Source of the DNA: a virus
Strand: one strand, 5' to 3'
IMG/VR virus record: IMGVR_UViG_3300023184_000515
Span: 1-23,904 of that record
DNA length: 23,904 nucleotides
Shown here: in pieces, positions 2,666 through 20,572 of the stretch
Layout: every line of letters begins with the position of its first letter
Numbering within the stretch: position 1 is the stretch's first letter
Made by a program: the position numbers and the translations under genes
Notes under the pieces: model-generated
Databases searched by the model: none
What the model was told of the DNA's origin: nothing
The model's input: only the letters and a program-made list of their open reading frames with translations

Positions 2666-5600
2666 TTAATAGCCGCCCGTTGCACCAAAAGCAACGAATG
2701 CTTGTGTACCACTGGCTACCGTTACAGCTCCAGTTGATCCATTGACAGACGTCACTCCGCTATTTGTCACCGTAACTCCACCAGTTGACGTGCTAACAGA
2801 AATTCCAGTCCCAGCAGCTAGACTTGTTACTCCTGAATTCGTTAAAGTCACTGTTCCACTTGTCGATACAGTTCCACCACCTGACATTCCTGTTCCAGCA
2901 GTTACCGTAATACTAGTTACAGATCCATTTCCTGTACCCGCACCGATTGCAGTTCGGTATGTAGCTGCATCAAGCGCAGAAACAGTGTTATCAATGTTGA
3001 ACCTTGGAAAAGATATCGCACTTGGATTTATCAGTGTGAAAAGATTTGCACCTAAAGTGGTAGCACCCAAAGCCGTTCTAGCAGTTGCGGCTGTGGTTGA
3101 GCCCGTACCACCGTTTGCAAGTGCAACAGTTCCAGTGACGTTTGATGAAGTTCCCGTCGTGTTTTGGTTTAGTGTTGGTACATCACCTGCTTGGATTGTG
3201 GACAAAGTTACGTTTGTGCCATTGCCTCGCAAATAAGAGCCGCTTGTAACGCCACCCGCAAAAGTATTTATTGCGCCTTGAGCAGTTGAAGTTCCTGATC
3301 CACCGTTAGCAACTGCAACCGTTCCCGTAACGTTTGCAGAAGTTCCTGTAGTATTTTGATTTAGGGTTGGGAAAGTACAATTTGAAAGTGTTCCCGAAGA
3401 GGGTGTTCCTAGTGCACCACCAACTGTTACATATGAACCAGCAGCTTGTTTGCCGTTAAATGTGCTCCAGTCTGTTGAGGTCAGATACCCGCTGACTGTT
3501 GATGATGCAGCCGCCATACTGATTACGGGAGTCGTTCCACCAGAGGAGACAACCGGCGCTGTACCCGTGACTGAGGTAACAGTACCTCCAGAACCTGTGG
3601 CGGCGATAGTAATACCCCCCGCGCTATTGGTGATCGTCACACCAGAACCTGCTGTAAGAGTTGCGCGGGTAAATCCTATTCCATTACCAATGTCTAGCGC
3701 ACCGTTTGCTGGCGTAGTTGCTAAACCTGTACCACCATTTGTAACTCCTACGGTTCCTGAAACATTTGAAGCTGTTCCCGTTGTGTTTTGATTAAAAGTC
3801 GGCCAAGTAAATGTGCCAGTGCTGAAATTTCCTGATGTTGGAGTTCCAAGAATAGGCGTCACCAAAGTTGGTGATGTAGAAAGAACATTTGAGCCAGAAC
3901 CAGTTGAAGTTGTGACACCTGTACCGCCGTTTGCAACAGCAACTGTTCCTGAAACATTTGAAGCTGTTCCCGTTGTGTTTTGATTAAAAGTCGGCCAAGT
4001 AAATGTGCCAGTGCTGAAATTTCCTGATGTTGGAGTTCCAAGAATAGGCGTTGTTAGAAATGGACTAGTCAAAGTTTTATTGCTTAAAGTCTCAGCGCCT
4101 GTTAGCGTCGCAAAACCACTTGCAGTAAATGCCGCACTTGTCCATGTAGAACCACTCCAAACAAATAAATTATTTGAAGTTGTATTCCAGTACAAAGCAC
4201 CTGTAATTAAAGCGTTGCCATCATTGTCTAATGTTGGCGCAGATGACTTAGAGCCTAGATACCTGTCGTCAAATGCGTCATAACTAGCGGCAGCATTAGT
4301 TGCACTTTGTGCTGCATTAACTGCACTAGTACTGGCGTTACCCGCATAAGTGGAAGCTTGTGATGAGCTTGTGCTTGCGTTGGTAGCGTAAGTGTTTGCT
4401 AAAGTTGCACTTGCAGCAGAGGCAGTTGCACTACCTAAAATCCCATCTACATAAAGTTTGGTTGCTGCATCTTGATTTGCTGTTGGATCACCTAAGCCCA
4501 CTATCTTATTAGCTCCCATTGCAATGGCACCTGTCATGGTTCCACCTGCAATATTTAGCTTTAATGAATTTGCTGTGTCTGCATAGATTTTGGTAACAGC
4601 ATCTTGCGCTAAGGTGGGATCGCCAACTCCAGTGATTTTGTTAGTTCCCATTGCAATAGCACCAGACATAGTGCCACCTGTGAGATTCAGTTTTAGTGAA
4701 GTTGCTGAATCTGTATAAATTTTAGTGACAGCATCTTGGGCTAAGGTGGGATCACTCAAGCCTGTAATTTTATTAGCTCCCATTGCAATAGCGCCAGACA
4801 TAGTGCCGCCAGAGACGTTTAATTTCAATGTGTCAGCAGTATCAACATAAGTTTTAGTTACAGCATCCTGAGCAAGTGTGGGATTGCCCAATCCAGTAAT
4901 CTTACTGGTACCCATTGCAATAGCACCAGACATAGTGCCCCCACCAAGTGGTAATTTGGTTGCAATTGAATTTGCTACAGTTGTCGAAAAACTCGCATCA
5001 TTACCCAATGCCGATGCAAGTTCATTTAATGTATCTAGCGTGCCGGGGGCAGAAGCAACTAAATTACTAATAGTTGAGTCAACGTAACTTTTATTTGCTG
5101 CATCTGAGCTAAATGTTGGTGTGCCAAGACCTGAAATCTTATAACTTCCCATAGCGATAGCACCGGACATAGTACCGCCAGCCAGATTAAGCTTAAAAGC
5201 ATCTGCTGTATCTACATATGCCTTAGTAGCTGCATCTGTACTTAATGTTGGAGTTCCAAGGTCAGTGATCTTGTTTCCGCTCATTGCTAATGAACCAGAA
5301 AGGGATCCACCTATAAGATTTAACTTTAAGGCTGTAGCGTTATCAACATAAAGTTTAGTGGTTGCATCTGAGTTGTTTGTTGGATTCGCTAGGCCTGTGA
5401 TTGTGGACGCTGTTGTACTGTCCATATCTAAAAGACCAGTTATCGTCACATTATTAAATGTTGATGTACCACTTGAAGTGACGTTACCTGTGACATTACC
5501 TGTAACGTTGCCTATTACTGCACCCGTGTGCGTACCAGAACTATTGCCAGCAAGGCTGCCTGTAAGGTTGCCGATAAAGCCTGTGGTTGATGTAACACTT

Positions 5601-5935
5601 GTACCAGTGATTGCAAGTGGGTTTAATCCACCAATCACAGCACCATTGATAGTGCCACCCGTGAAAGCCACACTCGAAGAGGTAATTGGGCCAGAAAATC
5701 CATTTGTTGCTGTCACAGTTCCGGTCAAAGAAGAAGTACCAGTTACTGCCAGATTTCCACCAACGGTAAAACTATCTCCCGCTGCGCCAGTTTGAAAATC
5801 TTTGAGTTGGCTCATCAACTCCCTGATCGCGTCATTTACTAGACTTGGAGCCATGCCCTCGCCCGTGTTGATTGAATCAATATCCGTGTTCAGTGCTGGA
5901 GTTGATGAAAACTCAGATATTTTTGTCCGTGCCAT
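2666..5935 (-). CDS. Tail fibre protein with internal repeats
   Basis: A 1089-aa, Gly/Ser/Thr/Asn-rich protein with almost no cysteine, typical of trimeric phage fibres. Residues 1-75 are the likely virion-attachment module (MARTKISEFS..., then AIRELMSQLKDFQTG and FTVGGNLAVTGT). Residues about 188-500 hold six to seven roughly 43-residue repeats around the core LKLN..GGTMSGAIAMG..KITGLG.PTLAQDAVTK.YVD. Residues about 640-1000 hold further repeats built on NQNTTGT..NVSGTVAVANGGTG. The end (GAVTVASGTQAFVAFG) shows no recognisable lectin, lyase or chaperone domain. The start is supported by AAGGGA 6 bases upstream. It follows a terminator and leads the fibre/lysis module. Many apparent frames on the other strand here are repeat-driven shadows. 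Confidence 0.92.
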   Translation of the reverse strand: MARTKISEFSSTPALNTDIDSINTGEGMAPSLVNDAIRELMSQLKDFQTGAAGDSFTVGGNLAVTGTSSLTGTVTATNGFSGPITSSSVAFTGGTINGAVIGGLNPLAITGTSVTSTTGFIGNLTGSLAGNSSGTHTGAVIGNVTGNVTGNVTSSGTSTFNNVTITGLLDMDSTTASTITGLANPTNNSDATTKLYVDNATALKLNLIGGSLSGSLAMSGNKITDLGTPTLSTDAATKAYVDTADAFKLNLAGGTMSGAIAMGSYKISGLGTPTFSSDAANKSYVDSTISNLVASAPGTLDTLNELASALGNDASFSTTVANSIATKLPLGGGTMSGAIAMGTSKITGLGNPTLAQDAVTKTYVDTADTLKLNVSGGTMSGAIAMGANKITGLSDPTLAQDAVTKIYTDSATSLKLNLTGGTMSGAIAMGTNKITGVGDPTLAQDAVTKIYADTANSLKLNIAGGTMTGAIAMGANKIVGLGDPTANQDAATKLYVDGILGSATASAASATLANTYATNASTSSSQASTYAGNASTSAVNAAQSATNAAASYDAFDDRYLGSKSSAPTLDNDGNALITGALYWNTTSNNLFVWSGSTWTSAAFTASGFATLTGAETLSNKTLTSPFLTTPILGTPTSGNFSTGTFTWPTFNQNTTGTASNVSGTVAVANGGTGVTTSTGSGSNVLSTSPTLVTPILGTPTSGNFSTGTFTWPTFNQNTTGTASNVSGTVGVTNGGTGLATTPANGALDIGNGIGFTRATLTAGSGVTITNSAGGITIAATGSGGTVTSVTGTAPVVSSGGTTPVISMAAASSTVSGYLTSTDWSTFNGKQAAGSYVTVGGALGTPSSGTLSNCTFPTLNQNTTGTSANVTGTVAVANGGSGTSTAQGAINTFAGGVTSGSYLRGNGTNVTLSTIQAGDVPTLNQNTTGTSSNVTGTVALANGGTGSTTAATARTALGATTLGANLFTLINPSAISFPRFNIDNTVSALDAATYRTAIGAGTGNGSVTSITVTAGTGMSGGGTVSTSGTVTLTNSGVTSLAAGTGISVSTSTGGVTVTNSGVTSVNGSTGAVTVASGTQAFVAFGATGGY
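3753..4051 (-). repeat. Perfect 107-bp direct repeat inside the fibre gene
   Basis: Positions 3753-3859 and 3945-4051 are identical over 107 bp, 192 bp apart. The offset is a multiple of three (64 codons), so both copies encode the same stretch (ILGTPTSGNFSTGTFTWP...). The lack of synonymous differences implies recent duplication or gene conversion. It is a ready substrate for in-frame deletion or expansion. Confidence 0.95.
4438..5373 (-). repeat. Degenerate ~43-residue repeat array in the fibre
   Basis: About 129-bp units encode repeats with core GGTMSGAIAMG, KITGLG and DAVTK.YVD. Roughly six full units plus a partial one are visible. One unit carries an insertion after SYVDS of about 40 residues (SNLVASAPGTLDTLNEL...). 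Units are diverged at the DNA level, unlike the 107-bp repeat downstream, so they are older. Confidence 0.9.
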
Positions 5936-5952
5936 ATAAGTCCCTTAAATGC

Positions 5953-5974
5953 AAAAACCGCCCTAAGGCGGTTT
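5953..5974 (-). terminator. Minus-strand terminator before the tail fibre gene
   Basis: Read on the minus strand, AAACCGCC (5974-5967) pairs with GGCGGTTT (5962-5955) around loop TTAG, and the right arm runs into five T residues (5957-5953). It begins 17 bp after the stop of the large ejection protein and ends about 10 bp before the fibre ribosome binding site. No promoter can fit between terminator and fibre start, so it probably works as a leaky attenuator. Confidence 0.8.
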
Positions 5975-5990
5975 AAATTGCGTGTTTTTA

Positions 5991-7991
5991 TCAATAGAGC
6001 AATGAGTTCAATCGATTGCTAACTCCCGCTGCAGCTTCTGCGCCAAAGATGCCAGATCGTGCGCCACCATAAATTCGCTCCCTGTCAATCTTTTCAAGAA
6101 TGTCTTTCAATGACTGCGCTTGTGTTTGTGCCTCACCCCCACGCTTAAGCAAAATGCTGCCAATCTGGTCTCTAACATTTTCTGGAGTCATCGTGCGACC
6201 TGCAATGTTTTTAACCGTTGTAGCCAATGCCAAAGGATCGCCAGTTTTGGCAGCAGTTCCCGCAGCGCCAAGGTCTTTCATCAACTGTGCGCTTTGATCA
6301 TCCATTCTTGCTTCACGACCTGCAGTCTGCGAGCCGCGTCCGACAGACTCCAATTTTTTAAGTCGGGCTTCAGCAGCCACTGTTGAGGCAAACTCTCTAA
6401 ATGCCCGCTCTGATGGAAATACCTCTTTGAGCTTCTCTCTGGTTGAAGGCTCCTTCCACATATTCATCATCTGTGTTTGGCCCCCCATCGTTCCTAGCTT
6501 TTGTCTCAGGCCCTCAAACGCCCCAACTTGAAAAGCCTCAAACTCAGACTGCCCCATGCTGCGAACCCGCTTATTGATTGATACGGCATCAAGGTTTATC
6601 AATCGCCGTCCAGCTTCCGCAGCATCAATCAACTGGCTTGGCCCCGCATATGCATCTCTTGCTTGTTTGTACAAGACCGCCCCCGTGCGTGGGTCAGTTG
6701 TGGCTGTATCAAGCTTTCCAACAATCAAATCTTTTAAATTTGCAAGTTTGAGTCCAAAGGGAGTGAGTTTGCCCTCCTTATCAACCGATTTAGAACTCGC
6801 CAGTAAACCATCCATCCCTTGTTTGACGTAGTCCAAATCTCTCATCCCAGCTTTTACAGGAGAGGAATCTTTAAAGCTTGAAATTGTGAATGGCACTCTG
6901 TCCAATACCGCAAGTTCCCTGCCCTTTTCAAAAGCACCAATTTGTTCCGCTGCTCTTAAAAGAGTTCGAGTCTCATCATCAAGAGGTACTTCAATCTTGT
7001 GAAGTTTTTCATACAAAGGGGCTGAAGCAATTTTCCGTTTTGCATTTAAATCTTCAACAAATGGTGGCAGCCTTTGGCCTTGGGGGCTCAAACCCGATTC
7101 GGCAGATGAGCGAAGCCTGTCGGCCCGCCCAGCTTGGCGCTGGTTGATCATGTTCTCCGCTGCATTTTGGGTTTTACCCGGCAGCGTAGCCATCGTGTCT
7201 AAAAGGTTTCGAGTATTTGTACCGGCTGAGTCTGCAAGCGTTGCCTCAGGACCTAATTTATTGAGCCTTGCCGCTGCCTGATTTGATCCGCTCTGATCGC
7301 GAAGCATCGCTTCTGCAATACGTCTTTCTGCCAAGTCCTTTGTGTCTTTAAGCCCAAATCTGGCACCAACATTTTGTCCAACATTAACAACGGCATTTTT
7401 AACGCCTTCAGTTGCTGGGCCTAAAATCGCACCTAATAAGGTTGAAATACCAGCTGTTTTCGGTATGTCGCCGACTTCCTCTGATGATCCAACGCCTCCA
7501 ATAAGGCCAAAGCCCCCGCCGGTTAGTGCTGCTGCCCCATATGGGTTCTTGACAACTGGCAATGCTTGCTTAATTACTTTAGCCGCAGGACCTCCTAGCG
7601 GCAAGCTTGCAATGAATTGTGATGCGCCTGACGTAAAGGGAGCTTCTTTGCTTCGCGATATGTCTGCACCGCGATAGAAATCTCTGTTTCTTCGGTACGC
7701 TTCAGTAAAAGTCTCGGGGCCTTTACGCCCCACCCCTGTGCCCGTAAGTGTGTCAACTGCACCCCATAAACCACCGTAGGCTTCATCCATCAAATTGAAT
7801 GTTGGCCCTTGTGTTGCATTCATCAAAGCTCTGACGGGTGCTGAAAGAGAAGCGCCACGTTGAAAGTTCTCGTTCACAACGGGTGTATCAGTCGTTGCAG
7901 CTGATTGTTTTGCTGCCTCTTGCTCTTGCAACCGAAGTCTTGCACGAGCAATCATTAGCATCTTCTCTTTATCGGAATTCAGTTCTTCCAT
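5991..7991 (-). CDS. Large internal virion (ejection) protein
   Basis: A 666-aa protein, highly charged and helical at the N-terminus (EKMLMIARARLRLQEQEAAK). Two glycine-rich hydrophobic stretches follow at about 152-169 (YGAAALTGGGFGLIGGVG) and 180-192. A long helical, Lys/Arg/Glu-rich remainder follows. Position and character match the large ejection proteins of podophages (P22 gp16 or T7 gp16 analogues) that enter the cell envelope with the DNA. No lytic transglycosylase motif was recognised. I chose the ATG at 7991 because AGGAG lies 8 bases upstream; an alternative start at 8024 adds 11 residues. The gene overlaps the end of the upstream protein by 13 bp and is followed by a terminator. 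Confidence 0.75.
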   Translation of the reverse strand: MEELNSDKEKMLMIARARLRLQEQEAAKQSAATTDTPVVNENFQRGASLSAPVRALMNATQGPTFNLMDEAYGGLWGAVDTLTGTGVGRKGPETFTEAYRRNRDFYRGADISRSKEAPFTSGASQFIASLPLGGPAAKVIKQALPVVKNPYGAAALTGGGFGLIGGVGSSEEVGDIPKTAGISTLLGAILGPATEGVKNAVVNVGQNVGARFGLKDTKDLAERRIAEAMLRDQSGSNQAAARLNKLGPEATLADSAGTNTRNLLDTMATLPGKTQNAAENMINQRQAGRADRLRSSAESGLSPQGQRLPPFVEDLNAKRKIASAPLYEKLHKIEVPLDDETRTLLRAAEQIGAFEKGRELAVLDRVPFTISSFKDSSPVKAGMRDLDYVKQGMDGLLASSKSVDKEGKLTPFGLKLANLKDLIVGKLDTATTDPRTGAVLYKQARDAYAGPSQLIDAAEAGRRLINLDAVSINKRVRSMGQSEFEAFQVGAFEGLRQKLGTMGGQTQMMNMWKEPSTREKLKEVFPSERAFREFASTVAAEARLKKLESVGRGSQTAGREARMDDQSAQLMKDLGAAGTAAKTGDPLALATTVKNIAGRTMTPENVRDQIGSILLKRGGEAQTQAQSLKDILEKIDRERIYGGARSGIFGAEAAAGVSNRLNSLLY

Positions 7992-9268
7992 CGCTCTCGC
8001 TCCTGATCCGTCATCACGTCCCATTCCTGTTGTGTAAATCCCGATGCGGGTTTAGATTTACTAGGCTGAGCCTTATTTAAGTTTGCAGCAACATCTGGGG
8101 CTTTTTGTGCAGATACTGCACCCATGCTTTTGACAATCCGGTCTAGCTCATTTGCTTGATTTTTTATGTTAGCCCGCCCAGTTATCAAACCTTTAGCGGA
8201 ATTAGGATCAGTGACAATTCCCTCAAGTATTGCCAAATCGGGACCGTTTAAAACACCTAATCCGTAAGCCTCTTTTGCTTGAAGCAGCATATTTTTGTAT
8301 TTAGTACTTAGATTTGCACGAGTCGTCATGTTCGTGAAATCTTTGTTTTGGGGGTCTTGTAAAGCAGCCACAAAAGATTGAACAGCGTTTGATGTGTTTT
8401 GTGCACCAATGATTGCCCTTTGCTGACTCTCGGGTAGTTTTGCACCATCCTTTGAAATCGCACCGGGTACTTGGGTGACTCCCGCTTGAGGGTTGAATTT
8501 ATTGAATGTCGATACTTGACCAGAGGGATCAGTTACGGTTTCAACACCTTCACGATTAAATTTATCTCTTTCAAGCTGCAATCTTCCACCACTGATGCCA
8601 TTTGCGGCAAGCTCGCCGGGTGTCATTGATTTCTTGATTTTCTCAACCGTTTGTCCCGTGTTTTTGTCTCTCACCAAAATAAAGTTACCAGCGTCAATCT
8701 GCTCAGTATTAGGTAGTGGCATGACATCTAGCACACGCATCTTGCCTTGTTTACTGATTTGAGCAACGATGGGCATTCCCTTGGCCGACATAAAGGTCGA
8801 TGGGGTGGTCGAAAACTCATCAGGCGGGTCGTATTTGTCTGCCAATTCCATATACACCTTGGCTTGCTGTGGAGGTAGATCAGGATCAGATGCCACATCC
8901 CTGTAAACCTTTGCAATATTTAATCCACTTGGGTCTTTGGATGTTTCAGACAACTTGGTTCTCAATGCAGCTCTGGCATCTTGCATGCGTTTCATTTCTG
9001 AAATTTTTGCACCCGTCAGTTGTTCATTGATCGCAGTGTCATAAGTACCTTTAAACGCTTGTTGTCCTTGTTGTAAACCCTGCGCAACCAGTGGTCCAAG
9101 CCCTTGCCTGACAGGGGAGCGACCAGAGTTGGCGAGCAAAGAAAGTCCAACACCCATCAGCCCAGACTGATTTGCTTGCTCGTTTAGCTTTCTAGACTGC
9201 TCGTCCCCCAACAAGCCGGGTAAGTAGCTAGGAGACTGTCCAAAAAGTCGTTGCAGATATTCGTCCAT
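7979..9268 (-). CDS. Internal virion protein, putative ejection protein
   Basis: A 429-aa soluble, mostly helical protein. It starts MDEYLQRLFGQSPSYLPGLLGDEQSRKLNEQA, contains a short small-residue stretch (GLMGVGLSLLANSG, about 36-49), and has a central region with DPSGQVSTFNKFNPQ. The C-terminus is charged and ends QERERWKN. N-terminal 'LLG...A...G.ll..' followed by long helices is common in podophage internal core proteins. A ribosome binding site AAGGAAAC precedes the ATG, and the gene begins 9 bp after the preceding stop. Function is inferred from position between the other ejection-type genes. No enzymatic motif was seen. Confidence 0.65.
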   Translation of the reverse strand: MDEYLQRLFGQSPSYLPGLLGDEQSRKLNEQANQSGLMGVGLSLLANSGRSPVRQGLGPLVAQGLQQGQQAFKGTYDTAINEQLTGAKISEMKRMQDARAALRTKLSETSKDPSGLNIAKVYRDVASDPDLPPQQAKVYMELADKYDPPDEFSTTPSTFMSAKGMPIVAQISKQGKMRVLDVMPLPNTEQIDAGNFILVRDKNTGQTVEKIKKSMTPGELAANGISGGRLQLERDKFNREGVETVTDPSGQVSTFNKFNPQAGVTQVPGAISKDGAKLPESQQRAIIGAQNTSNAVQSFVAALQDPQNKDFTNMTTRANLSTKYKNMLLQAKEAYGLGVLNGPDLAILEGIVTDPNSAKGLITGRANIKNQANELDRIVKSMGAVSAQKAPDVAANLNKAQPSKSKPASGFTQQEWDVMTDQERERWKN

Positions 9269-9277
9269 ACAGTTTCC

Positions 9278-9682
9278 TTACATAAGCGATAGCGGTTCAC
9301 GCTTACGCCGTTTAATTTCCAACAAACTTGATATCTGATCGGCTTGCATGGGCCGCGTAGCTCTCATGGCGGGAGCACCCCCACCACCTTGAGGGCGCTG
9401 TGACATCAGAGCTTGAAGGCCACTACTTCCTAAAGATTTTGAAAGATTGGCGTTGGCAGATAAAGGCCCAGTAGCTGCCTGACTTGGCGAGATCAAGCCG
9501 GGTACTGCAGCCTCACCTGCTTTTGCTGCAATTGCCTTTGAAGCCTCTCCCGTTATGTAGGGGGAAACAGTGTTTGCAGCCTCTGCGGCTAGGGCTGCAC
9601 TTTCGATCGCAGTTGTTGCAGCCGCCGGGGCTGCAACAGCACCTGCAGCTTCAGCCGCAAGAAGTGGCTCGAACCCGCTCAC
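9278..9682 (-). CDS. Ala-rich small virion protein
   Basis: A 134-aa protein with an alanine-dominated N-terminal half (residues 8-65), a Gly-rich linker (QGGGGAPAM) and a basic C-terminus (LEIKRRKREPLSLM). It starts with GTG at 9682, overlapping the previous stop as GTGA. GGAGGT 10 bases upstream supports this start. The low-complexity helix may insert into membrane or pack inside the virion. The neighbours suggest an internal virion or ejection role, and no named family was recognised. Confidence 0.7.
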   Translation of the reverse strand: MSGFEPLLAAEAAGAVAAPAAATTAIESAALAAEAANTVSPYITGEASKAIAAKAGEAAVPGLISPSQAATGPLSANANLSKSLGSSGLQALMSQRPQGGGGAPAMRATRPMQADQISSLLEIKRRKREPLSLM

Positions 9683-10512
9683 GACAAGATACCTCCAAGG
9701 ATTGCGCCGCCCGCTGTCCCTAAGGGTGTGCCACCAAACAAAGAATTACCCACAATACCACCCCCGATAGCGCCCGCCAGTGGGTTCCTGTATGTGGGCT
9801 GAGTTGTCATACCGCCTTGAGGTGAACCATAAGCTGCGTTGAGATACGAGTTCAATTTGGCTTGGGGCAAGTTCTGATCAAAGTTGAATCTTTGGATTGA
9901 ATCATCCAGCGCCGCTTGCTGATATCCCTCAGACATCTGTCCTAAATTGAGCATCTGGTTGATGTCCGTGTAGTCTGCTTGTGCAAGCTGTGGGGCAGCG
10001 CCAATCAAAGTTTGCTGCCTTGCTCGCTCAGCGTCATAATTTTGGTATGCAAGGTTTCCAGCCGTATTGGTTAATGACTGCGCAAATTGACCAGTAGCTC
10101 TGTCTTGTAATTGGCCCATCGCATTGCTTCCGTACCGCCCGGCTTTGCTAGCATTGGAGTTAATTGAGTTCATGGCATCTTGATATGAGGTTTGCGCAGC
10201 ATTGGCTGCCGTATTGAACGCCCCTGAAAAGAATGGATTACCACCTAGGTAATTACCTTGAATAGTCGAGAGTGCTTGCGCTTGCGCTGCCGGGTTTAGG
10301 GGATTTCCCATCGATGCCCGGTTTTGGGCTGCAACCATAGCGGACTGCGTCTGCTGAGAAGGCGAGACGTAAGTTTGACCGGGGTAAAAACTAGGGGTTG
10401 TTGGCGCTTCATAAAGATTTTGGGCTTCACTTAAACCGTATTGCACATACGGGCGCACTGCTGGGTCGAGTTCTGTTCTCGTCACTGTATTTGTTCCACC
10501 ACCACCACTCAT
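9679..10512 (-). CDS. Internal virion protein with C-terminal glycine zipper
   Basis: A 277-aa Ala/Gln/Asn-rich protein. The middle (about 100-200) is helical with many Q and A residues. The C-terminus has a glycine-zipper membrane hairpin (AGAIGGGIVGN and GTAGGAILGGILS). This is the profile of small podophage ejection proteins (T7 gp14 or P22 gp7 analogues), which form part of a conduit through the envelope. The ATG at 10512 is preceded by GGAGG and overlaps the stop of the GNAT-like gene (ATGA). A TTG six codons upstream is less likely. Confidence 0.75.
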   Translation of the reverse strand: MSGGGGTNTVTRTELDPAVRPYVQYGLSEAQNLYEAPTTPSFYPGQTYVSPSQQTQSAMVAAQNRASMGNPLNPAAQAQALSTIQGNYLGGNPFFSGAFNTAANAAQTSYQDAMNSINSNASKAGRYGSNAMGQLQDRATGQFAQSLTNTAGNLAYQNYDAERARQQTLIGAAPQLAQADYTDINQMLNLGQMSEGYQQAALDDSIQRFNFDQNLPQAKLNSYLNAAYGSPQGGMTTQPTYRNPLAGAIGGGIVGNSLFGGTPLGTAGGAILGGILS

Positions 10513-10904
10513 AAAACCTCCATTGCCCAACTACGGGGCTTAAAACCTAATTGTTTTGCTCTGCGAACCCATCCGGGTCGCCAAGACTCAAAAGTCAACC
10601 TCTTAGACTTTTCTTGTTTAGCAATTGTTTGAAGGTGTTGCCAAGCTTCATCAAAATGAACTGGCGCAGCCAGATAGGCACACCAGACATGAAGAGCCTC
10701 ACCTTTTGGCTGAAGAACACCAAAGCCAACTGGCTCATTGCCAATTGCAAGAAGCCATAACATTGAGCGCCCCGAATAACAGTCTGCGTATACGTCTTCC
10801 GGGATCCAAGGTTCTGGTGATTTGTTTTGAATTGTTAGTAAACCTGCACGGATAAAGGACCAACAAGCTCGAAGCTCATCTGGTTTGATAAAAACAGCAT
10901 CCAT
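10509..10904 (-). CDS. GNAT-like acetyltransferase-fold protein (T7 gp13-like position)
   Basis: A 131-aa protein with a GNAT-like pattern. A helical N-terminus (ELRACWSFIRAGLLTIQ) leads to DVYADCYSGRSMLWLLAIGNEPVGFGVLQ, resembling the beta4 strand, and then LHVWCAYLAAPVHFDEAWQHLQTIAKQE. The C-terminus is LTFESWRPGWVRRAKQLGFKPRSWAMEV. The usual acetyl-CoA loop (Q/R-x-x-G-x-G/A) is not clear, so catalysis is doubtful. T7 gp13, also around 130-140 aa and between tail tube and core genes, is a comparable small assembly protein. It begins 1 bp overlapping the upstream stop (TGATG). Role in virion assembly is inferred. Confidence 0.65.
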   Translation of the reverse strand: MDAVFIKPDELRACWSFIRAGLLTIQNKSPEPWIPEDVYADCYSGRSMLWLLAIGNEPVGFGVLQPKGEALHVWCAYLAAPVHFDEAWQHLQTIAKQEKSKRLTFESWRPGWVRRAKQLGFKPRSWAMEVL

Positions 10905-11215
10905 CAACCTACAACCAAATACGAATACGATCTATCAACTGCCGAGTTGGCACTATGTGAGAGAGTTGCAGAACCGTTTGTGCGTGAACTGACATAAACC
11001 AGATTCATCCAAGCTGCTGCATTAGCTGTTTTCGGCATTAAAACAATAACCGAATCTGCGCCAATTCGAGCATCAGACAGCGTTGTAAGCGTGGCGCTTA
11101 AAGCAGCCAACGTAATTGATCCAATATTGTTTGTTTTGCCATTCATGGCTTGATTAACTACTTCAGCGACAGACCGTGGGTCTCCACCAAAGCTTGGTAA
11201 AACTCTGTAACTCAT
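10904..11215 (-). CDS. Small conserved virion-type protein after the nozzle gene
   Basis: A 103-aa Ser/Ala/Thr/Asn-rich, probably beta-sandwich protein. It starts MSYRVLPSFGGDPRSVAEVVNQAMNGK and continues NNIGSITL..., DARIGADSVIVLMPKTANAAA and SATLSHSANSAVDRSYSYLVVG. The 'NGKTNNIGSITL' and 'DARIGADSVI.LMP.TANAAA' stretches recur in small proteins of many podophage tail regions. Its function is not established; it may be a fibre adaptor or decoration. The ATG overlaps the stop of the nozzle gene by 4 bases. Confidence 0.7.
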   Translation of the reverse strand: MSYRVLPSFGGDPRSVAEVVNQAMNGKTNNIGSITLAALSATLTTLSDARIGADSVIVLMPKTANAAAWMNLVYVSSRTNGSATLSHSANSAVDRSYSYLVVG

Positions 11216-12624
11216 CGCTTGCCTCGGTTCACGATATCTAAATCAATCCCAACAGCTGTAGTCCAAGAGCCAGTGGGAATCGTTTTGATACGGTGATATC
11301 GACCATGAGAGCGCAACCCTACTCTATTCTCACTGTCAGCAGCAACTGCGTTGGTGTAAATCAATGAGTCACTTAATAGACTTCGAGATGCAACTGAAAC
11401 GGAAGCAGAACCACCGTCAATTTGAGGCCTTGCGAGTTTTATCAGTGAGGGGGTAGAACTTAAGTCACCTGTGATGATTTCAGAAATTGAATTGTTTCCT
11501 TGAAACGTAACCACCTTGGTGCCATTAACACCCCCTAAAAGTAACTTATTACCTGACCAAAATCGAGAGTCAAGTGAAACTGACAAATTGTCCAAATTTC
11601 CATAGTTATCAAGTGCTTCAAGCGTCATTGCATTTGTAGCAGCCTCTGCGATGTACTGAGCGTCTGTGTAACCATGAGACCAACGACCGACTTGCCAGTT
11701 ATAAATCAGCAGAGACCTTCCGCCGCTGACTGAATTTGGGTAACACCAAAATACGCATCTTCGAACAGGGTCAACGGCTGCACTCATCTCACCTATTCGC
11801 GAAAGTGTAATGTCATTAAAAAACCACCGATCTACTTTTTCAGCGCCTATCGGTTTGATTGACTGCCCATCACACATGTAAAAGCCGTCATCGCTCAAAA
11901 AGAAAGAGACAGAGCCAAACTGGGCGATAGAGTTTCGCTCCAAGCACCCAAGCCCTCGACTGATGGTGTCAAATTGAAAATATAAGGGTGATCCCGCATA
12001 GCTCATGCGAGAGATACTTCGCTCGTTATAAACAATTCCAAATTCACCGCCCACAATGCCCTGAATGTTGCCGCCGTCTGCGATGTCTTGAATATCAGAC
12101 TGACTTGTGGTGCTACTTGTCCAATTGGTCTCATCATTGATGTCTGACCAGTAAACACGGTTTGGATTTGCGGTCGTGTGGGCGGCTACAACAAAGTCAC
12201 GAATGACAGTTACAAACTTAGCAGCGGGAGCCGCAGCAGCAACGTCTGCAAATAATGCTGAAACGCCTAACGAGTAGGCTTGAATTTTTTGACTTCCATT
12301 GGCTGCTAAAACAATTTTTCCAAATTGAGCAAAATTCCACCTAGTACCTGAATAACCGCCCGCCTTGCTGACATTGCTCAATGAAAGTGTTGTGTTGCTA
12401 AATGTGAAAAGTTTGGTATCTGATGATGCAAAAAGTGTAATATTTCCTGAAAACTGCCCTGCAAATAAATCGTTCAAAGCTTCTGAAGCAGCCGAGCTAA
12501 TTTCGGCCACTGCTGGCAAAGGTCCATAGCCAATGGCTTGGGGCACCACATTTAAGGCTTCGGTTAGAGACCCAGCAATACCGGGCTGGTCTGGAAGCCA
12601 CTCACCAAAACTGACCATTGGCAT
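11212..12624 (-). CDS. Tail nozzle / tail-hub (packaged-DNA stabilisation) protein
   Basis: A 470-aa protein rich in repeated beta-strand segments. Examples are GNITLFASSDTKLFTFSN, RDFVVAAHTTANPNRVYWSDINDETNW, GIVYNERSISRMSYAG and VSFFLSDDGFYMCDGQ. The 'NRVYWSDINDETNW' and 'E.SIYR...' blade-like segments are characteristic of the beta-propeller nozzle proteins of podophages. The length is close to P22 gp10 (about 470 aa). It seals the portal-adaptor channel and forms the tail tube. The gene lies directly after the adaptor (1-bp overlap, TGATG), with AGGTGG as ribosome binding site. Confidence 0.8.
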   Translation of the reverse strand: MPMVSFGEWLPDQPGIAGSLTEALNVVPQAIGYGPLPAVAEISSAASEALNDLFAGQFSGNITLFASSDTKLFTFSNTTLSLSNVSKAGGYSGTRWNFAQFGKIVLAANGSQKIQAYSLGVSALFADVAAAAPAAKFVTVIRDFVVAAHTTANPNRVYWSDINDETNWTSSTTSQSDIQDIADGGNIQGIVGGEFGIVYNERSISRMSYAGSPLYFQFDTISRGLGCLERNSIAQFGSVSFFLSDDGFYMCDGQSIKPIGAEKVDRWFFNDITLSRIGEMSAAVDPVRRCVFWCYPNSVSGGRSLLIYNWQVGRWSHGYTDAQYIAEAATNAMTLEALDNYGNLDNLSVSLDSRFWSGNKLLLGGVNGTKVVTFQGNNSISEIITGDLSSTPSLIKLARPQIDGGSASVSVASRSLLSDSLIYTNAVAADSENRVGLRSHGRYHRIKTIPTGSWTTAVGIDLDIVNRGKR

Positions 12625-13238
12625 CAGACCACCTGCATCCGTAAGGGGTTACCAGCAAACTCTGCGGCATCGTCACTTGAACTTAAGTCACTTAACGCTC
12701 TTTCAAATAATCCAGCCCAAACGGTAAGGCGCTCATCGGACATAAGGTATGGCTCTGCCTCACCCAACGCTGCATAAAGCAATGCATCAGGTGCTTCAGT
12801 TAAAAAAACATTACTTGCGTTGCTGGACGATAAAAATAGGGGCTTTTGATAGTACAAAAGAGACAAGTTGTAAACGCTGTCGGGTATTCGAGCCAAAACC
12901 AAATTGCTGCCGATGCTTGTGAAGATTTCTGGGCGACCCGTGACGTTGGTGATACCGCTTCCGTAAAAAGCAGTGGGTGCGTTATAGGCCAAAGCACCTA
13001 CGGGAGTGCTACTAATATGCAACTCACGCAGCTGTAAAAAGTCACTTGGCAGGGCCACTGAGGCCGTACTTGCGACCGTTGTGAGTGTCGATTGGGACAA
13101 CATTGCGCGAATACGCAGAACACGCCTTAGGCGTATTTCTGCCAATCGGATGAAATCTTCAACTTTTGAGCTCAGATCTGAGCGACCTAAATACGCAGCC
13201 ACATCAGTTTTGAGTTCTGTATAAGTACTGAAAGCCAT
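12624..13238 (-). CDS. Head-to-tail adaptor protein
   Basis: A 204-aa protein, helical at the N-terminus (YTELKTDVAAYLGRSDLSSKVEDFIRLAEIRLRRVLRIRAM). A beta-rich centre (VALPSDFLQLRELHI) and a C-terminal helix region (APDALLYAALGEAEPYLMSDERLTVWAGLFERAL) follow. The pattern 'FI.LAE.R..R.LR', 'LP.DFL..R.L' and 'P.lLlYaAL.eA..yl.....' is the phage adaptor family found in SU10- and T7-like viruses. It docks twelve copies under the portal. Its ATG follows the previous stop immediately (TAAATG), with GGGAGGG as ribosome binding site. Confidence 0.88.
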   Translation of the reverse strand: MAFSTYTELKTDVAAYLGRSDLSSKVEDFIRLAEIRLRRVLRIRAMLSQSTLTTVASTASVALPSDFLQLRELHISSTPVGALAYNAPTAFYGSGITNVTGRPEIFTSIGSNLVLARIPDSVYNLSLLYYQKPLFLSSSNASNVFLTEAPDALLYAALGEAEPYLMSDERLTVWAGLFERALSDLSSSDDAAEFAGNPLRMQVV

Positions 13239-13541
13239 TTAGACCCTCCCCGGCCTCGTTCGAAATGCTCGGTTGTCCGGATGGTTAAGCCAAGCCTTGA
13301 ATCTGGGTTCATCTAACACAGCAAAGCCGCGCATGACGCCTTGTTTATTTAACTCATCAATGACTGTGAGTGGAATACTTGCAATTCGGTTACCAAAGAG
13401 TTCATCCGACCAACGTGATTTTTCATCGTAGGCATTAAAGTTCTTTTTGTTAGATTCAATAATGCCGCTGACATCTTGAGCCGTTTCAATGACAACGCCG
13501 TTATCTCCATTGGCATGAACTCTTTGATCACGAAATTTCAT
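13239..13541 (-). CDS. Small neck-region protein downstream of capsid
   Basis: A 100-aa soluble protein (MKFRDQRVHANGDNGVVIET ... DELNKQGVMRGFAVLDEPRFKAWLNHPDNRAFRTRPGRV). The C-terminal 'L..PDN..FRTRPGRV' motif recurs in small podophage proteins encoded between capsid and adaptor, and its role is unknown. The first ATG is at 13541, directly after a terminator T-tract, with no ribosome binding site in the usual window. It may therefore be translated poorly or from a processed transcript. It is followed without a gap by the adaptor gene. Confidence 0.75.
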   Translation of the reverse strand: MKFRDQRVHANGDNGVVIETAQDVSGIIESNKKNFNAYDEKSRWSDELFGNRIASIPLTVIDELNKQGVMRGFAVLDEPRFKAWLNHPDNRAFRTRPGRV

Positions 13542-13545
13542 TTGT

Positions 13546-13573
13546 AAAAAAGGGGACAAGTTTCCTTGTCCCC
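13546..13573 (-). terminator. Strong minus-strand terminator after the major capsid gene
   Basis: On the minus strand GGGGACAAG (13573-13565) pairs perfectly with CTTGTCCCC (13560-13552) around a 4-base loop. Six T residues follow (13551-13546). It starts 14 bp after the capsid stop codon. The next gene's ATG is only 4 bp beyond the T-tract. It resembles the arrangement after T7 gene 10 and would give high capsid expression with reduced readthrough. Confidence 0.92.
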
Positions 13574-13587
13574 AATCCTCATGGCAA

Positions 13588-14535
13588 TTAACTTAGATCA
13601 GAAATGATGCCGTGGGCGGCTTCACTGCGAACTTCAAGCGTGTATTCAACTAAAAGTTGGGTTTTCTCAGAATCACCAACCTTAGCCAAATCATTCGTTT
13701 GGAATGGGCGCAAATAAGCAATTGCTGCGTACTCAGGGTCAAGCACAAAAGCAGTTTCATCGCCGCCGTTACCATTGAGCATGAACCTATTAGGTACAAC
13801 GCTCATAGAGCCAAAATCACTCAAGTACACATCGGCAGCACCTACGATGGTTGTCGGTGCATCAGCAGGGGCCATATAGCGCTGTGCTGCAATACCAGCA
13901 AAAGAGCTAACTACCTGCTTGTGAGCCGGGGTCACCATCAGAATCTTTGGTGTACCGCCATTGGTAAATACTGATTTCACAACAGACTGCAGAAGTGCCT
14001 CAGTAAAGGTTCGGTTTGTACCTGACACACGAGCAGTTGTTCCACTTGCACCAGCAGTGCCGCTTGTGCCAAGTGAAGTATTGCTTGCAAGCCAAGTTTG
14101 TAAACCACCCAATACCCTTGCAGCAGATCCAGCAGATCCATTGCTTGAGACAGTGTTGTTCAACAGTGCGTACTCCATATCACGCTTAATTTCAGAACTT
14201 GCCTTAGCCAGTTCGTAAGCTTTTTGAGACTTGCGCCCTGCCTTATCAACAGACTCTAAAGTGCCAGTGACACCAATGGTTTTTTCCGAGATTTGTGTTC
14301 GGTTACCCACTCGAACCGTTGGCACCGCTGCTGTTGTTGATGCATCTGCCCCTTCTATGGCCGCATTAACTCGCGGGGCAGCAAGTTGATCCGTTTGCCA
14401 CTCATGATAAGTATTGGTTGCTTTGGATTTGCCAATAGAAGACATGAAAGGCGTGGAAGTTGGTGAGATTGAGTAAATGGTGTCACTCAAATCTTCGCGA
14501 ATACCAACCGCCGCATAAGTGCGAAATGTTGTCAT
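13588..14535 (-). CDS. Major capsid protein, SU10-type (DUF5309 family)
   Basis: A 315-aa HK97-fold coat protein. The N-terminus (TFRTYAAVGIREDLSDTIYSISPTSTPFMSSIGK) and YHEWQTDQLAAP are typical of the SU10/DUF5309 capsid family. So are VGNRTQISEKTIGVTGTLESVDKAGR and the E-loop/A-domain region with ALLNN. The C-terminal 'DPEYAAIAYLRPFQTNDLAKVGDSEKTQLLVEYTLEVR' block is also diagnostic. It forms the icosahedral head together with the scaffold encoded upstream. A good ribosome binding site (GAGG, 7 bases before ATG) and a strong terminator right after the gene fit high expression. Confidence 0.93.
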   Translation of the reverse strand: MTTFRTYAAVGIREDLSDTIYSISPTSTPFMSSIGKSKATNTYHEWQTDQLAAPRVNAAIEGADASTTAAVPTVRVGNRTQISEKTIGVTGTLESVDKAGRKSQKAYELAKASSEIKRDMEYALLNNTVSSNGSAGSAARVLGGLQTWLASNTSLGTSGTAGASGTTARVSGTNRTFTEALLQSVVKSVFTNGGTPKILMVTPAHKQVVSSFAGIAAQRYMAPADAPTTIVGAADVYLSDFGSMSVVPNRFMLNGNGGDETAFVLDPEYAAIAYLRPFQTNDLAKVGDSEKTQLLVEYTLEVRSEAAHGIISDLS

Positions 14536-14543
14536 AAATTACC

Positions 14544-15509
14544 TCATATAAATTTTTCAAAAACAGATGCAGCATCGGATACCTTTCCAGATCTCCTAAG
14601 TTGCGCCTGTGCTTTTTTTAGATTCTCATCAGTTGAGCCTCGCTGCGCTGCAGCTGTACCCGGTCTGAGCATCTTGGGTGCCTCTTGAACCTTTTTGGTC
14701 GTACTGGGCGATTGTTTTTGCAGCTTCACGTATTGCGAAGCCAAGTGCAAAGCATGGATCATTCGGGAGTCGTAGGCTTGCGCTATCTCCTCATCAGTGA
14801 ACCCTAAATGCTTTGCTACATCTCGTAAGTCCTGTCTTACCTGATCACCTTTTTCAGGATGACCATACTCAGGAATCACTTCAACCACCCGCTGCTTTTG
14901 TTGCTCGGCATATTGCCGAAGTTGCTGAAATTGCTCGGCTTTTTGTTGTTCAACAATTCGAGCTCTTTCTGCTTGCACTTGAGAGACTTGCTTTTCTCTC
15001 TCAGAGCGTTCGGCAACCTTTACAGCGTATCCAATAGGATCATCGTATTTCAGGGCATCAAGGTCTTCGCCCTTGTCTTGTTGTTGAAGAAAGGAGTCAA
15101 TCAATGCAATCTTGTGTGCGTAAACATCACGAGCTTGCTTTGCTTGCTCCAAAGCAACCTTTTCGCTTTCGACCTGCTTGCGCTGATCGGCTACAAGTTG
15201 TGACTTCTTTGTGTAGTCAATCCCTTTTTGATAACCGTCAACCAGCTCCTCAAAAGTAACCTCCCGATCTTCACCAGCGGCTTTCACTTTGAATCGCTGT
15301 GGCTCAGGAACCTCACTTTCTTCGGTGCTGGTCTCTTGATCATCAGACTCAGTCTCAACAGCTGATAGCGCCTCTTGTGGCTCTGGTGCGGCCTCTTGCT
15401 CGCCCTCTTGGGGTGCCTCTGCTCGCTCCATTAGCCCTAAGAATGCTCCCGCAGCCTCATTCATCGTCATTGAACTACTCCCAGACTCTGGGGCTGTGTT
15501 CTCACTCAT
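14544..15509 (-). CDS. Capsid scaffolding protein
   Basis: A 321-aa protein. It has a disordered acidic N-terminus (Glu/Ser/Pro-rich, residues 1-75), a short 'FKVKAAGEDREVTFEELVDGYQKG.DYTKK' segment, and a long Gln/Glu/Lys coiled coil (about 100-215). A basic C-terminal tail contains a helix-turn-helix-like end (KAQAQLRRSGKVSDAASVFEKFI). Composition, length and position directly before the capsid gene identify a scaffold, which templates procapsid assembly and then leaves. I chose the ATG at 15509 because AGAAGG precedes it; an in-frame extension to 15578 would run through a terminator hairpin. It stops 8 bp before the capsid ATG. Confidence 0.88.
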   Translation of the reverse strand: MSENTAPESGSSSMTMNEAAGAFLGLMERAEAPQEGEQEAAPEPQEALSAVETESDDQETSTEESEVPEPQRFKVKAAGEDREVTFEELVDGYQKGIDYTKKSQLVADQRKQVESEKVALEQAKQARDVYAHKIALIDSFLQQQDKGEDLDALKYDDPIGYAVKVAERSEREKQVSQVQAERARIVEQQKAEQFQQLRQYAEQQKQRVVEVIPEYGHPEKGDQVRQDLRDVAKHLGFTDEEIAQAYDSRMIHALHLASQYVKLQKQSPSTTKKVQEAPKMLRPGTAAAQRGSTDENLKKAQAQLRRSGKVSDAASVFEKFI

Positions 15510-15524
15510 TTGCCTTCTCCAATG

Positions 15525-15546
15525 AAAAAACCCGCACAAGGCGGGT
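15525..15546 (-). terminator. Minus-strand terminator immediately before the scaffold gene
   Basis: On the minus strand ACCCGC (15546-15541) pairs with GCGGGT (15535-15530) around a 5-base loop. T residues follow from 15530 to 15525. Only about 15 bp separate the T-tract from the scaffold ATG, filled by the ribosome binding site, so no promoter fits. On the + strand there is no T-tract, so it is not a terminator for the divergent gene at 15593. Confidence 0.78.
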
Positions 15547-15592
15547 CGAAAATGATAAATTTGCGAATCAAGTCGCATCTTTACCGCTAAAT

Positions 15593-15991
15593 ATGAAAAT
15601 CAATTACTTTATAAAAGTCCCATCTTTACTGTTGGGTTCTATTCTTTTATTTTTCTCAACCCTATGCTTTTCGCAAAATGTAATTACATTACATTGCAAA
15701 ACTAACACTGGAGAATCGATGGCTAGACCTCTGGTCATTGACTACTCAAAAAATTCTGCCAAGTGGGGTGGAGTCGACCCCTACGAAATTAAATTCAAAA
15801 CAGACGAATGGATCACCTTAGTTCAAGGTGACTCATACAATAAAATTGGTGGTGAAATAGCAGTGCTAAATAGACTCACAGGTGAATACAAAAGAGTAGT
15901 AATTGGTGAATTTTGCACCGATTCAACCTGCACTTCAAAAAGAGTCAGCAACGCGTATTACTTTGGTACTTGCTTTCAACAAAAATACTAA
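15593..15991 (+). CDS. Secreted small protein, moron candidate (cassette A, first gene)
   Basis: A 132-aa protein with a Sec signal peptide (MKINYFIKVPSLLLGSILLFFSTLCFSQ, cleavage near residue 26-28). The mature beta-rich domain is about 105 aa with four cysteines (C35, C108, C113, C127) that could form two disulphides. The 'C.TNTGESM..PLVIDYS', 'W...' and 'VLNRLTGEY' pattern resembles small periplasmic beta-barrel proteins of unknown function found in proteobacteria and their phages. It is on the strand opposite to the late operon and is AT-rich. I chose the ATG at 15593 because the signal peptide starts there; upstream codons would overlap the scaffold. No strong ribosome binding site or promoter is seen. 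Confidence 0.75.
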   Translation: MKINYFIKVPSLLLGSILLFFSTLCFSQNVITLHCKTNTGESMARPLVIDYSKNSAKWGGVDPYEIKFKTDEWITLVQGDSYNKIGGEIAVLNRLTGEYKRVVIGEFCTDSTCTSKRVSNAYYFGTCFQQKY

Positions 15992-16046
15992 AACAACGTA
16001 TGCCGCCTCTACGCAATCCGATTCGTTCACATCTTGATCGTTAAAC

Positions 16047-16397
16047 ATGAAAAACAATTACTACAAAAAATTAGTTCCCTTATTTTTAGTTGCGTTCCTT
16101 TTGATTCCAACATATTCAAATTCGCAACAAGGCCTTGCAAATTTTGGCTCTGTTGATTGCGGACTATGGTTAAAAGATAACGACCGGATGAAATCTCTTT
16201 ACAAATCTTGGCTGTTGGGATTTTTAACAGGCATGAACTTATCTGACACTAAAGTTGTAAAAGCAAATTTTCTTGACAAGTTAAGTTCAACGTCACAAGC
16301 TTACGTCTTTGTGGATAACTATTGTCAGCAAAATCCACTCAAAAACACTATAGATGCCGCAATGGTTTTAATTTTAGATTTAGAGAAACAAAAATAA
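16047..16397 (+). CDS. Secreted small helical protein, moron candidate (cassette A, second gene)
   Basis: A 116-aa protein with a clear signal peptide (lysines, then LVPLFLVAFLLIPTYSNS, cleavage near residue 26). The mature domain is helical, with two cysteines (C38 and C93), WLLGFLTGMN (55-64) and YVFVDNYCQQNPLKNTIDAA. The 'W.xG...G' and 'YC..NP' pairing resembles small periplasmic helical proteins such as the Rap1a/Tai immunity and HdeA-like groups. I cannot claim membership. It lies 55 bp after the first secreted gene. Its stop is 9 bp from the stop of the convergent late gene. Periplasmic protection or exclusion is an inference. Confidence 0.78.
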   Translation: MKNNYYKKLVPLFLVAFLLIPTYSNSQQGLANFGSVDCGLWLKDNDRMKSLYKSWLLGFLTGMNLSDTKVVKANFLDKLSSTSQAYVFVDNYCQQNPLKNTIDAAMVLILDLEKQK

Positions 16398-16406
16398 TCA
16401 TCAAAT

Positions 16407-16640
16407 TTATAGAACCTTCCATCGCTTCTTTACTATCCGATCCGTTGCTGCAACTGATTCAAAGTGCGCTTGAATTTCTTTTAAAACCTTAAGCTTTAGG
16501 TAAAACCTCTCTCGCCCGCGCTCATCATCTTCATTAGAGTTAGCAATCTGATTGAGCATTGAATCTTGCAATGCCGCCATCTCACTGGTCCAAAACTCAT
16601 CAGATACCAAATTTTTGGCTCTCTCTGACCGATCAATCAT
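16407..16640 (-). CDS. Small helical phage protein after the 579-aa gene
   Basis: A 77-aa charged protein (MIDRSERAKNLVSDEFWTSEMAALQDSMLNQIANSNEDDERGRERFYLKLKVLKEIQAHFESVAATDRIVKKRWKVL). Its two helices and the 'RERFYLKLKVLKEIQAHFESV' segment are of a type often encoded in podophage head modules, with unknown function. The ATG at 16640 overlaps the upstream stop by one base (TGATG) and has AGGAGG upstream. It is the last late gene before cassette A interrupts the operon. Confidence 0.75.
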   Translation of the reverse strand: MIDRSERAKNLVSDEFWTSEMAALQDSMLNQIANSNEDDERGRERFYLKLKVLKEIQAHFESVAATDRIVKKRWKVL

Positions 16641-20521: not shown

Positions 20522-20537
20522 GACTGCTCCCAATGCA

Positions 20538-20566: not shown

Positions 20567-20572
20567 TCAAAT

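Follow-up and report, generated by a model that had tools for sequence, protein, structure and literature searches.

Terminators located right behind the major capsid gene are already known from phages T7, LUZ100, LUZ24, and UFV-P2, as passages of the relevant reports indicate (PMC10134795, PMC5592923, PMC3890496). In T7, Tφ lies directly behind gene 10, and the next genes are expressed by readthrough. In LUZ100, an apparent strong terminator follows the capsid gene according to a passage of its report (PMC10134795), and for UFV-P2, a LUZ24-like phage, part of the report proposes two late transcript modules with a post-capsid boundary (PMC3890496). The P22-like phage L, whose late operon is served by one promoter, has a predicted intra-operon terminator at the end of the procapsid module; the passages that deal with it state that intra-operon late terminators are not unique, call their role unknown, and propose either partial termination or the stopping of transcription begun without antitermination (PMC8022706). 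In lambdoid phages, late transcription is antiterminated by Q, as stated in part of another report (PMC7326022). Here, we describe three hairpins, T1, T2, and T3, which are predicted terminators in the late operon of the IMG/VR virus record IMGVR_UViG_3300023184_000515. Positions 1 to 23,904 of this record, the whole stretch of DNA that was analysed, are referred to as the window.

Three Predicted Terminators Precede Start Codons of Late Genes

The late genes on the minus strand of the window are arranged in the order terminase, portal, scaffold, SU10-type major head protein, a gene of 100 amino acids (aa), two virion structural genes, ejection protein, fibre, and endolysin. Terminators were scored with our own script by a d'Aubenton-Carafa-type score, d, which combines hairpin energy and the U-tract; all terminator calls given here are predictions from sequence. 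The T1 hairpin (15529..15547, minus strand) has the stem GACCCGC..GCGGGTT and a T-tract that runs on to 15525. Its tail (15509..15528, minus strand) consists of the rest of the T-tract, the spacer CATT, and the Shine–Dalgarno (SD) sequence GGAGAAGG, and reaches up to the A of the scaffold ATG (15509). The T2 hairpin (13552..13573, minus strand; GGGGACAAG-GAAA-CTTGTCCCC) begins 14 nucleotides (nt) after the capsid stop codon, and its U-tract of six T (13546..13551, minus strand) ends 4 nt before the ATG at 13541. The T3 hairpin (5955..5974, minus strand; AAACCGCC-TTAG-GGCGGTTT) has a T-tract extending to 5953 and is followed by a tail (5935..5952, minus strand) with the spacer GCATTT and the SD sequence AAGGGA, up to the A of the fibre ATG (5935). 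A preliminary description of this DNA had placed three minus-strand hairpins with T-tracts before the scaffold, the 100-aa gene, and the fibre, the T-tracts stopping 15, 4, and 17 nt short of the ATG, and both the places and the distances were confirmed.

T2 (d of 33), T3 (17), and T1 (14) were the only minus-strand sites in the window with d above zero, the next best scoring −10. Ranked by G-C pairs, they also came out on top of the 31 matches of a simple hairpin scan of the window (shuffles: mean 20.6, standard deviation 4.3). Each combines a G+C-rich hairpin with an immediate U-tract, as would an intrinsic (Rho-independent) terminator. In 100 dinucleotide shuffles of the window, the mean number of sites above zero was 0.59, and three or more such sites appeared in only one shuffle. 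The T2 score was reached in none of the 100, and that of T1 was reached by the best site in 13. Judged by score only, T1 and T3 do not stand far above chance, and their score is not decisive; what sets them apart from chance is their position. The hairpin ends 10–23 nt upstream of a start codon in all three cases, and for three of three to end no more than 30 nt upstream of a start has a probability of about 0.0016, assuming that sites land in intergenic DNA. Chance hairpins were excluded for T2 by the score and for the whole set by position. In the sister contig (L115, 90–97% DNA identity), T2 and T3 are unchanged although their flanks differ.

No sigma-70-like site was listed in the gap between T2 and the next gene by the scan of the window. 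Like Tφ, T2 thus lies directly after the major capsid gene, without a promoter before the next gene. The earlier claim that no promoter can fit between the hairpins and the start codons held in the window, and because of that the downstream genes would, as had been argued, depend on readthrough or antitermination there.

A Hairpin Behind the Major Capsid Gene Is Conserved among Relatives

Relatives of the capsid gene (13588..14535, minus strand; PHROG 1328, E 7e-107; Pfam SU10_MCP, E 3e-100) were collected from 80 viral contigs, 11 bacterial genomes, and 4 annotated phages, giving 96 loci with the window. In 74 of them, a hairpin with d above zero was found no more than 80 nt past the capsid stop, and 68 of the 100 sense-strand sites with d above zero in the 1.21 Mb covered lay between the capsid and the 100-aa genes. 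When the loci were collapsed at 90% capsid DNA identity into 38 clusters, 37 of which were usable, such a hairpin followed the capsid stop in 22/37 (23/38 clusters with a limit of 120 nt). Eight other genes served for comparison (terminase, portal, 78-aa, scaffold, 100-aa, two structural, and ejection), and a site with d above zero followed none of their 150 stops tested. The 38 cluster representatives contained 39 sense versus 13 antisense sites. The fold of the stretch past the capsid stop had a median z of −4.6, with z below −2 in 30/37 clusters. Stems of separate clades differ in sequence, with the pairing kept. Changes on both sides were seen at five pairs across three small alignments of four to five distinct sequences each, with weak shuffle support in two, and only one covariation count was rare among shuffles (22/500).

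The hairpin extends to phages that are only distantly related. A stem was present after the capsid gene in 14 of 18 more distant annotated phages, which were read singly: in nine with d above zero (LUZ24, HTVC106P, MJing1, IME234, 7-11, MW202711, MW202879, Lyrsu01, and ppBeUSDA76-2) and in five with no U-tract directly after it (PaP3, PhiCHU, phiM5, phiGT1, and MW202496). Four had neither by eye (Bernal13, RHph_I1_23, LAh_6, and SU10), SU10 having a modest stem after the capsid gene and a site with d above zero one gene further on. The records of LUZ24 and Salmonella phage 7-11 carry an annotated terminator at the post-capsid site. LUZ24-like phages (Bruynoghevirus) share with the window the homologous capsid, the order of scaffold, capsid, and 100-aa gene, and a terminator, annotated in their case, between the last two; unlike the window, they have an SD sequence of their own after the hairpin. 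Taken together, these comparisons of sequence indicate that T2 is an ancestral post-capsid hairpin, and that it marks a real, selected boundary after the capsid gene.

Among the 22 loci without a hairpin of d above zero, L075 is truncated by the contig end, L089 and L090 show no clear stem just past the stop by eye, and the remainder mostly have a strong stem whose U-tract is poor or absent, or one with a long loop.

Extra genes occur right after the capsid gene in L007 (1845-2480), L019 (10976-11600), and phiGT1 (L104). An HNH nuclease is annotated in phiGT1; the inserts of L007 and L019 are HNH-like by eye and lie directly behind the hairpin. In phiM5 (L101), a tRNA-Met follows the post-capsid stem.

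The Start of the Gene behind T2

The 100-aa gene (13239..13541, minus strand) belongs to PHROG 3982, of unknown function, and has homologues in distant phages, e.g., PaP3, LUZ24, and IME234, down to 22–30% identity. While the names scaffold, ejection, and fibre used in the preliminary description were upheld by PHROG and Pfam, the name 'neck' given to this gene was not: the structure modelled for the protein (mean predicted local distance difference test score of 72) had no match at E<1 in a PDB fold search.

In the window, the ATG of the 100-aa gene lies 10 nt past the T2 stem, with no SD sequence in between. The only SD-like sequence near the gene is GAGGA (13576..13580, minus strand), located between the capsid stop and the T2 hairpin; counted from GAGG, it is 35 nt from the ATG, or 13 nt without the 22-nt hairpin. 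Eleven further clusters have a close ATG and no SD sequence after the hairpin (L002, L003, L006, L017, L022, L030, L053, L062, L063, L072, and L096), and in four clusters with a stem but no U-tract an SD sequence is present after the stem (L076, L077, L079, and L095). The neighbouring genes have strong SD sequences, both the capsid gene (median −6.1 kcal/mol, 31 cases) and the gene after the 100-aa gene (−6.3 kcal/mol, 26 cases). The extended lowest-energy hairpin pairs part of the SD-like sequence in its lower stem, in the window as well as in several of the clusters that lack an SD sequence after the hairpin.

In the L029 and L040 clades (11 distinct sequences), a −10-like TGATAGAAT with one variable position ends 6 nt before the ATG behind the hairpin, and the 100-aa gene may have a promoter of its own there. 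The claim that no promoter fits behind the hairpins does not extend to these clades. A promoter-like −10 directly after the terminator, 6–7 nt before the start of the 100-aa gene, is seen in the L029 and L040 clusters and also in L094, which amounts to a leaderless layout.

T1 and T3 Are Local Elements of a Widespread Type

T1 and T3 have no such conservation. No hairpin of this kind precedes the fibre in any of 25 relatives with a fibre homologue, the sole exception for T3 being the sister contig. The gap upstream of the scaffold is mostly 13–58 nt in relatives and has no hairpin with d above zero, and no such site precedes the scaffold in the stretches of PaP3, LUZ24, and PhiCHU either. A conserved tier border at T1 was thus rejected. 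T1 adjoins an insert of about 0.9 kb, which is absent from relatives and carries two antisense open reading frames (ORFs), and the fibre gene behind T3 (2666..5935, minus strand; 1089 aa; PHROG 38058 and others) has a later part that diverged in the sister contig. T1 was rejected as the terminator of the antisense ORFs, being on the wrong strand (minus, with the ORFs on the plus strand). Nor was there a plus-strand site with d above zero near these ORFs that could serve as a moron-type terminator.

The 22-mer of T1, CCCGCCTTGTGCGGGTTTTTTC, was found in 33 viral contigs, in many cases with CATTTCTGGAG or a similar sequence and a start codon behind it; it lies no more than 100 nt from the stop of an upstream same-strand ORF in 26/33 and inside an ORF of at least 80 codons in 4/33. 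We define here as a composite a hairpin followed by T6, a short spacer, GGAG, and a start no more than 10 nt further on. T1 fits the gap pattern of the composite (spacer CATT), T3 is alike by eye (T5, AAGGGA, and a start 5 nt later) but falls outside the exact pattern, and T2 is of another type. Counts of composite instances are redundant and are lower bounds, and one rearranged pattern served as the control. The 20-mer GGGTTTTTTCATTTCTGGAG occurred in at least 120 viral stretches, compared with one for the control with the SD letters rearranged. Among the matches listed, there were 78 distinct contexts of the 20-mer: a hairpin of −6 kcal/mol or lower was present in 77, a start lay no more than 25 nt away in 76, an upstream stop no more than 100 nt away in 70, and 69 combined the three features. 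When the spacer between T6 and GGAG was left free (3–13 nt), it was 7 nt long in 56 of 93 distinct contexts among the matches listed, the commonest 7-nt spacers among these matches being ATTGCCT (17) and CATTTCT (11). The spacing from hairpin edge to start was 22–25 nt in 112/142, which was partly set by the search patterns and is not used as evidence. BLAST with a 34-base composite gave 726 phage records at E<=1, of which 301 had at least 80% coverage. With regard to whether the composite is specific to phages, the 20-mer was absent from 60 genomes of the family of a Variovorax genome, where the rough expectation at viral density is only about one or fewer.

Downstream of at least 221 composite instances there are 45 protein families, one of them the scaffold of the window. 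To identify them, 30 of the 45 downstream representatives were scanned, along with 10 representatives of 68 upstream families. The downstream ones comprised four major head, two major tail, one minor-tail/Ig, two sheath, one tape measure, one tail chaperone, and one baseplate hub, as well as five lysis/peptidase, four fibre/spike, one HNH, and eight unknown or without a match. The two largest downstream families (56 and 27 instances among the matches listed) are major head proteins, and the major head, major tail, and sheath families together account for 105 of the 221 instances among the matches listed, which are redundant. The ten upstream representatives include terminase, head decoration, protease, and tail terminator. 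In Pseudomonas phages Haddon and Lodos, the composite stands between the decoration and the major head gene. It precedes a 163-aa tail gene in E. coli 733R5 and Klebsiella KpF5, and the terminase small subunit in Citrobacter CF1. Composite-preceded major head genes also had a site with d above zero after the stop in 7/31, 0/19, 1/1, and 0/1 distinct complete cases; hairpins that bracket the capsid gene, seen in λ and, around scaffold and capsid together, in the window, are thus not a general rule. T1 and T3, judged by these comparisons, are lineage-specific composites of a hairpin, a U-tract, an SD sequence, and a start, and are of a widespread type.

Comparison with Other Phages

The first 20,000 positions of λ contain eight sense sites with d above zero and one antisense site (shuffle mean 0.22). 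Five of the eight sense sites are intergenic, preceding E (the major capsid gene), FI, J, lom, and orf-401, and fill five of the six gaps of at least 30 nt. As in the window, the genes are tightly packed and hairpins with U-tracts lie shortly before start codons, the distance being 17–29 nt in λ. The sites between D and E, E and FI, I and J, J and lom, and lom and orf-401 unite a T1-like site before the capsid, a T2-like site after it, and a T3-like site before the fibre gene, the site before E having no clear GGAG. T2 differs from the λ sites in lying 10 nt from the next start with no SD sequence. The SAS/ESAS of cluster K mycobacteriophages resemble the composite as a repeat at translation starts with an inverted repeat just upstream in half of the cases; they differ from it as a 13-bp repeat with 11–19 copies per genome and 17-bp imperfect repeats, which are not called terminators in the part of that report that concerns them (PMC3203893).

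Other Features of the Window

The scaffolding protein gene occupies 14544..15509 on the minus strand (PHROG 3927, E 7e-50). Its frame stays open upstream through T1 up to an ATG at 15578 (14544-15578 in the window), and the start at 15509 is preferred because it is favoured by the SD sequence. The two antisense ORFs beside T1 (15593-15991 and 16047-16397, together 15593..16397, plus strand) have signal-peptide-like starts and take up the space that separates the 78-aa gene from the scaffold, immediately upstream of T1; the sequence around both starts is similar. They had no PHROG match (the first was scanned as 15299-15991), no Pfam match, and no relative among viral contigs, and are possible lysogenic-conversion genes. 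Two further antisense ORFs, in which some stretches look membrane-spanning by eye, lie at 20504-21322 (plus strand) in the 874-nt gap between terminase and portal, and another one with a signal-peptide-like start lies at 23103-23549 (plus strand), beside the small gene 22579-22872. Between the portal and the 78-aa gene there is a 579-aa gene (16640-18379), which had no PHROG or Pfam match and gave tblastn matches in only five loci, the window included.

A tRNA-Asn gene (52-127, plus strand) is followed by a strong predicted terminator at 148-169, the only plus-strand site above zero. Matches of this region (52-169) to bacterial genomes extend in the best cases beyond the tRNA to about position 180, and it is possibly a prophage junction or host DNA. 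As a pointer to the host, it matched all 399 genomes sampled from the family of the Variovorax genome; since the similarity of tRNA genes reaches well past the limits of a single family, the match names no host.

Discussion

The explanation that best joins these observations is that one long late operon contains two kinds of intrinsic-terminator-type element, the ancestral T2 versus the boundary elements T1 and T3, with antiterminated readthrough; we regard it as about an even bet. T2 would end part of the transcripts right behind the major capsid gene; its stable stem at the 3' end would protect the abundant scaffold and capsid mRNA, and the genes beyond T2 would be expressed at a lower level from readthrough RNA. 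In T1 and T3, a terminator for transcription arriving from upstream would be joined to the next gene's ribosome binding site, the edge of the hairpin being some 20 nt upstream of the start codon. In lytic growth, a polymerase antiterminated in the manner of Q would read through all three, and unmodified transcription, such as leaky or prophage readthrough, would be stopped at the hairpins. With Q-type antiterminated readthrough, the scaffold and the capsid would not be starved. We think that both proposals made for phage L apply, i.e., partial termination with 3' protection at T2 and mainly the stopping of unmodified transcription at T1 and T3. Within 37.7 kb of MW202481, d is above zero at just two sense sites, of which one lies 89 nt past the annotated Q gene and the other behind the capsid gene, as a Q/tR' system would have it. 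The late genes of T7 and LUZ100 are transcribed by a phage RNA polymerase, whereas in the annotated relatives of the window no such enzyme was noticed.

Several points weigh against this explanation. The window is a linear virus fragment with the early region, where an antiterminator might be sought, outside it. Q is an annotation in relatives: Pfam gave nothing for the Q protein of MW202481 and only a sub-threshold hit for that of Venkman. No site with d above zero precedes the late genes examined in P2, and the sister contig stops short of T1, so that the comparison with it covered T2 and T3. The 15 clusters without a site of d above zero mostly have a stem without a direct U-tract or with a loop of tens of nucleotides, a pattern that fits RNA protection better than termination; L089 and L090, with no clear stem by eye just past the stop, likewise count against the explanation.

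That T2 serves mainly to stabilise the capsid mRNA, as a 3' or processing stem, with termination secondary, we consider rather unlikely. The stem is indeed kept more widely than the U-tract, since six clusters (L076, L077, L079, L086, L087, and L095) have long stems without a direct U-tract, five more (L068, L070, L071, L073, and L078) have long-loop stems after the capsid, and phiM5, phiGT1, and MW202496 likewise have no U-tract. However, a pure stabiliser needs no U-tract, and terminator-grade sites were found in 22/37 clusters. T2 might also take part in the translation start of the 100-aa gene, either because folding brings GAGGA near the ATG or by coupling to capsid translation. The close ATG without an SD sequence in the window and eleven clusters, beside neighbours with strong SD sequences, points this way, and genes 25 and 38 of T4, in which a stem shortens the spacing from 22 to 5 and from 27 to 11, provide a precedent in part of the source (PMC3014915). 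T2 resembles these split ribosome binding sites in having GAGGA 5' of the stem, but GAGGA is itself partly paired in the lower stem, in the window and in several clusters, and the shortened spacing (35 to 13 in the window) is long; we consider a role of T2 in translation improbable. Since part of GAGGA is paired in the extended hairpin, coupling is as likely as a split start.

The preliminary description had read the three hairpins as terminators with readthrough, by which the operon is split into four tiers and the stoichiometry of the proteins could be determined. This is consistent with the passages on the post-capsid terminator of LUZ100 (PMC10134795) and on the two late modules of UFV-P2 (PMC3890496), and the conservation of T2 counts for it. 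Thus, a boundary at T2 stands, but T1 and T3 have no counterpart in relatives, T1 as a partial stop would lower the scaffold and the capsid, the most needed products, and composites like T1 precede major head genes elsewhere; we judge the four-tier model unlikely. The position of T1 before scaffold and capsid had been called counterintuitive, which it is not, because composites precede major head genes in unrelated phages and λ has a site between D and E. Composites of the T1/T3 type could instead be 5' leaders of highly expressed genes, in which the hairpin insulates or protects the ribosome binding site, their likeness to terminators being a by-product. The major head (4), major tail (2), and sheath (2) proteins among the 30 scanned downstream representatives and the preferred 7-nt spacer (56/93 distinct contexts among the matches listed) would suit such leaders; but insulation needs no U-tract, lysis, chaperone, tape-measure, and fibre genes are also found downstream, and the instances are redundant lower bounds, so we find this doubtful. 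An origin of T1 and T3 at mosaic joints, as recombination linkers or as what is left of inserted genes, is equally doubtful. It would agree with the insert beside T1, with the diverged later part of the fibre behind T3, and with the λ sites around lom and orf-401. Against it, T1 is oriented opposite to the two ORFs of the insert, and hence is not their own terminator, and the hairpin of T3 persists although the sequence around it differs.

In the open-access literature, we found no account of deep conservation of a post-capsid stem in this capsid family, nor of a recurring terminator–SD composite before head and tail genes; this is weak evidence, and no search was aimed at the composite by name. 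Intra-operon terminators in late operons with one promoter are acknowledged yet unexplained in the phage L paper, as far as the relevant passages go (PMC8022706). The comparison presented here separates two kinds that can be tested independently, the post-capsid stem versus the widespread terminator–SD composite, and λ, the best laboratory system, resembles the composite before its capsid and fibre genes. As a speculation to which we assign a low probability, tailed phages might share a 'stop-and-start' element made up of a terminator hairpin, a U-tract, a preferred 7-nt spacer, and an SD sequence, which would be placed preferentially before those virion genes that are most abundant (major head, major tail, and sheath). 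Its hairpin would act as an insulating, stabilising 5' leader when transcription is antiterminated and as a stop for unmodified polymerase. If this is true, virion genes would be kept silent in the prophage and would be strongly translated in lysis by one and the same element.

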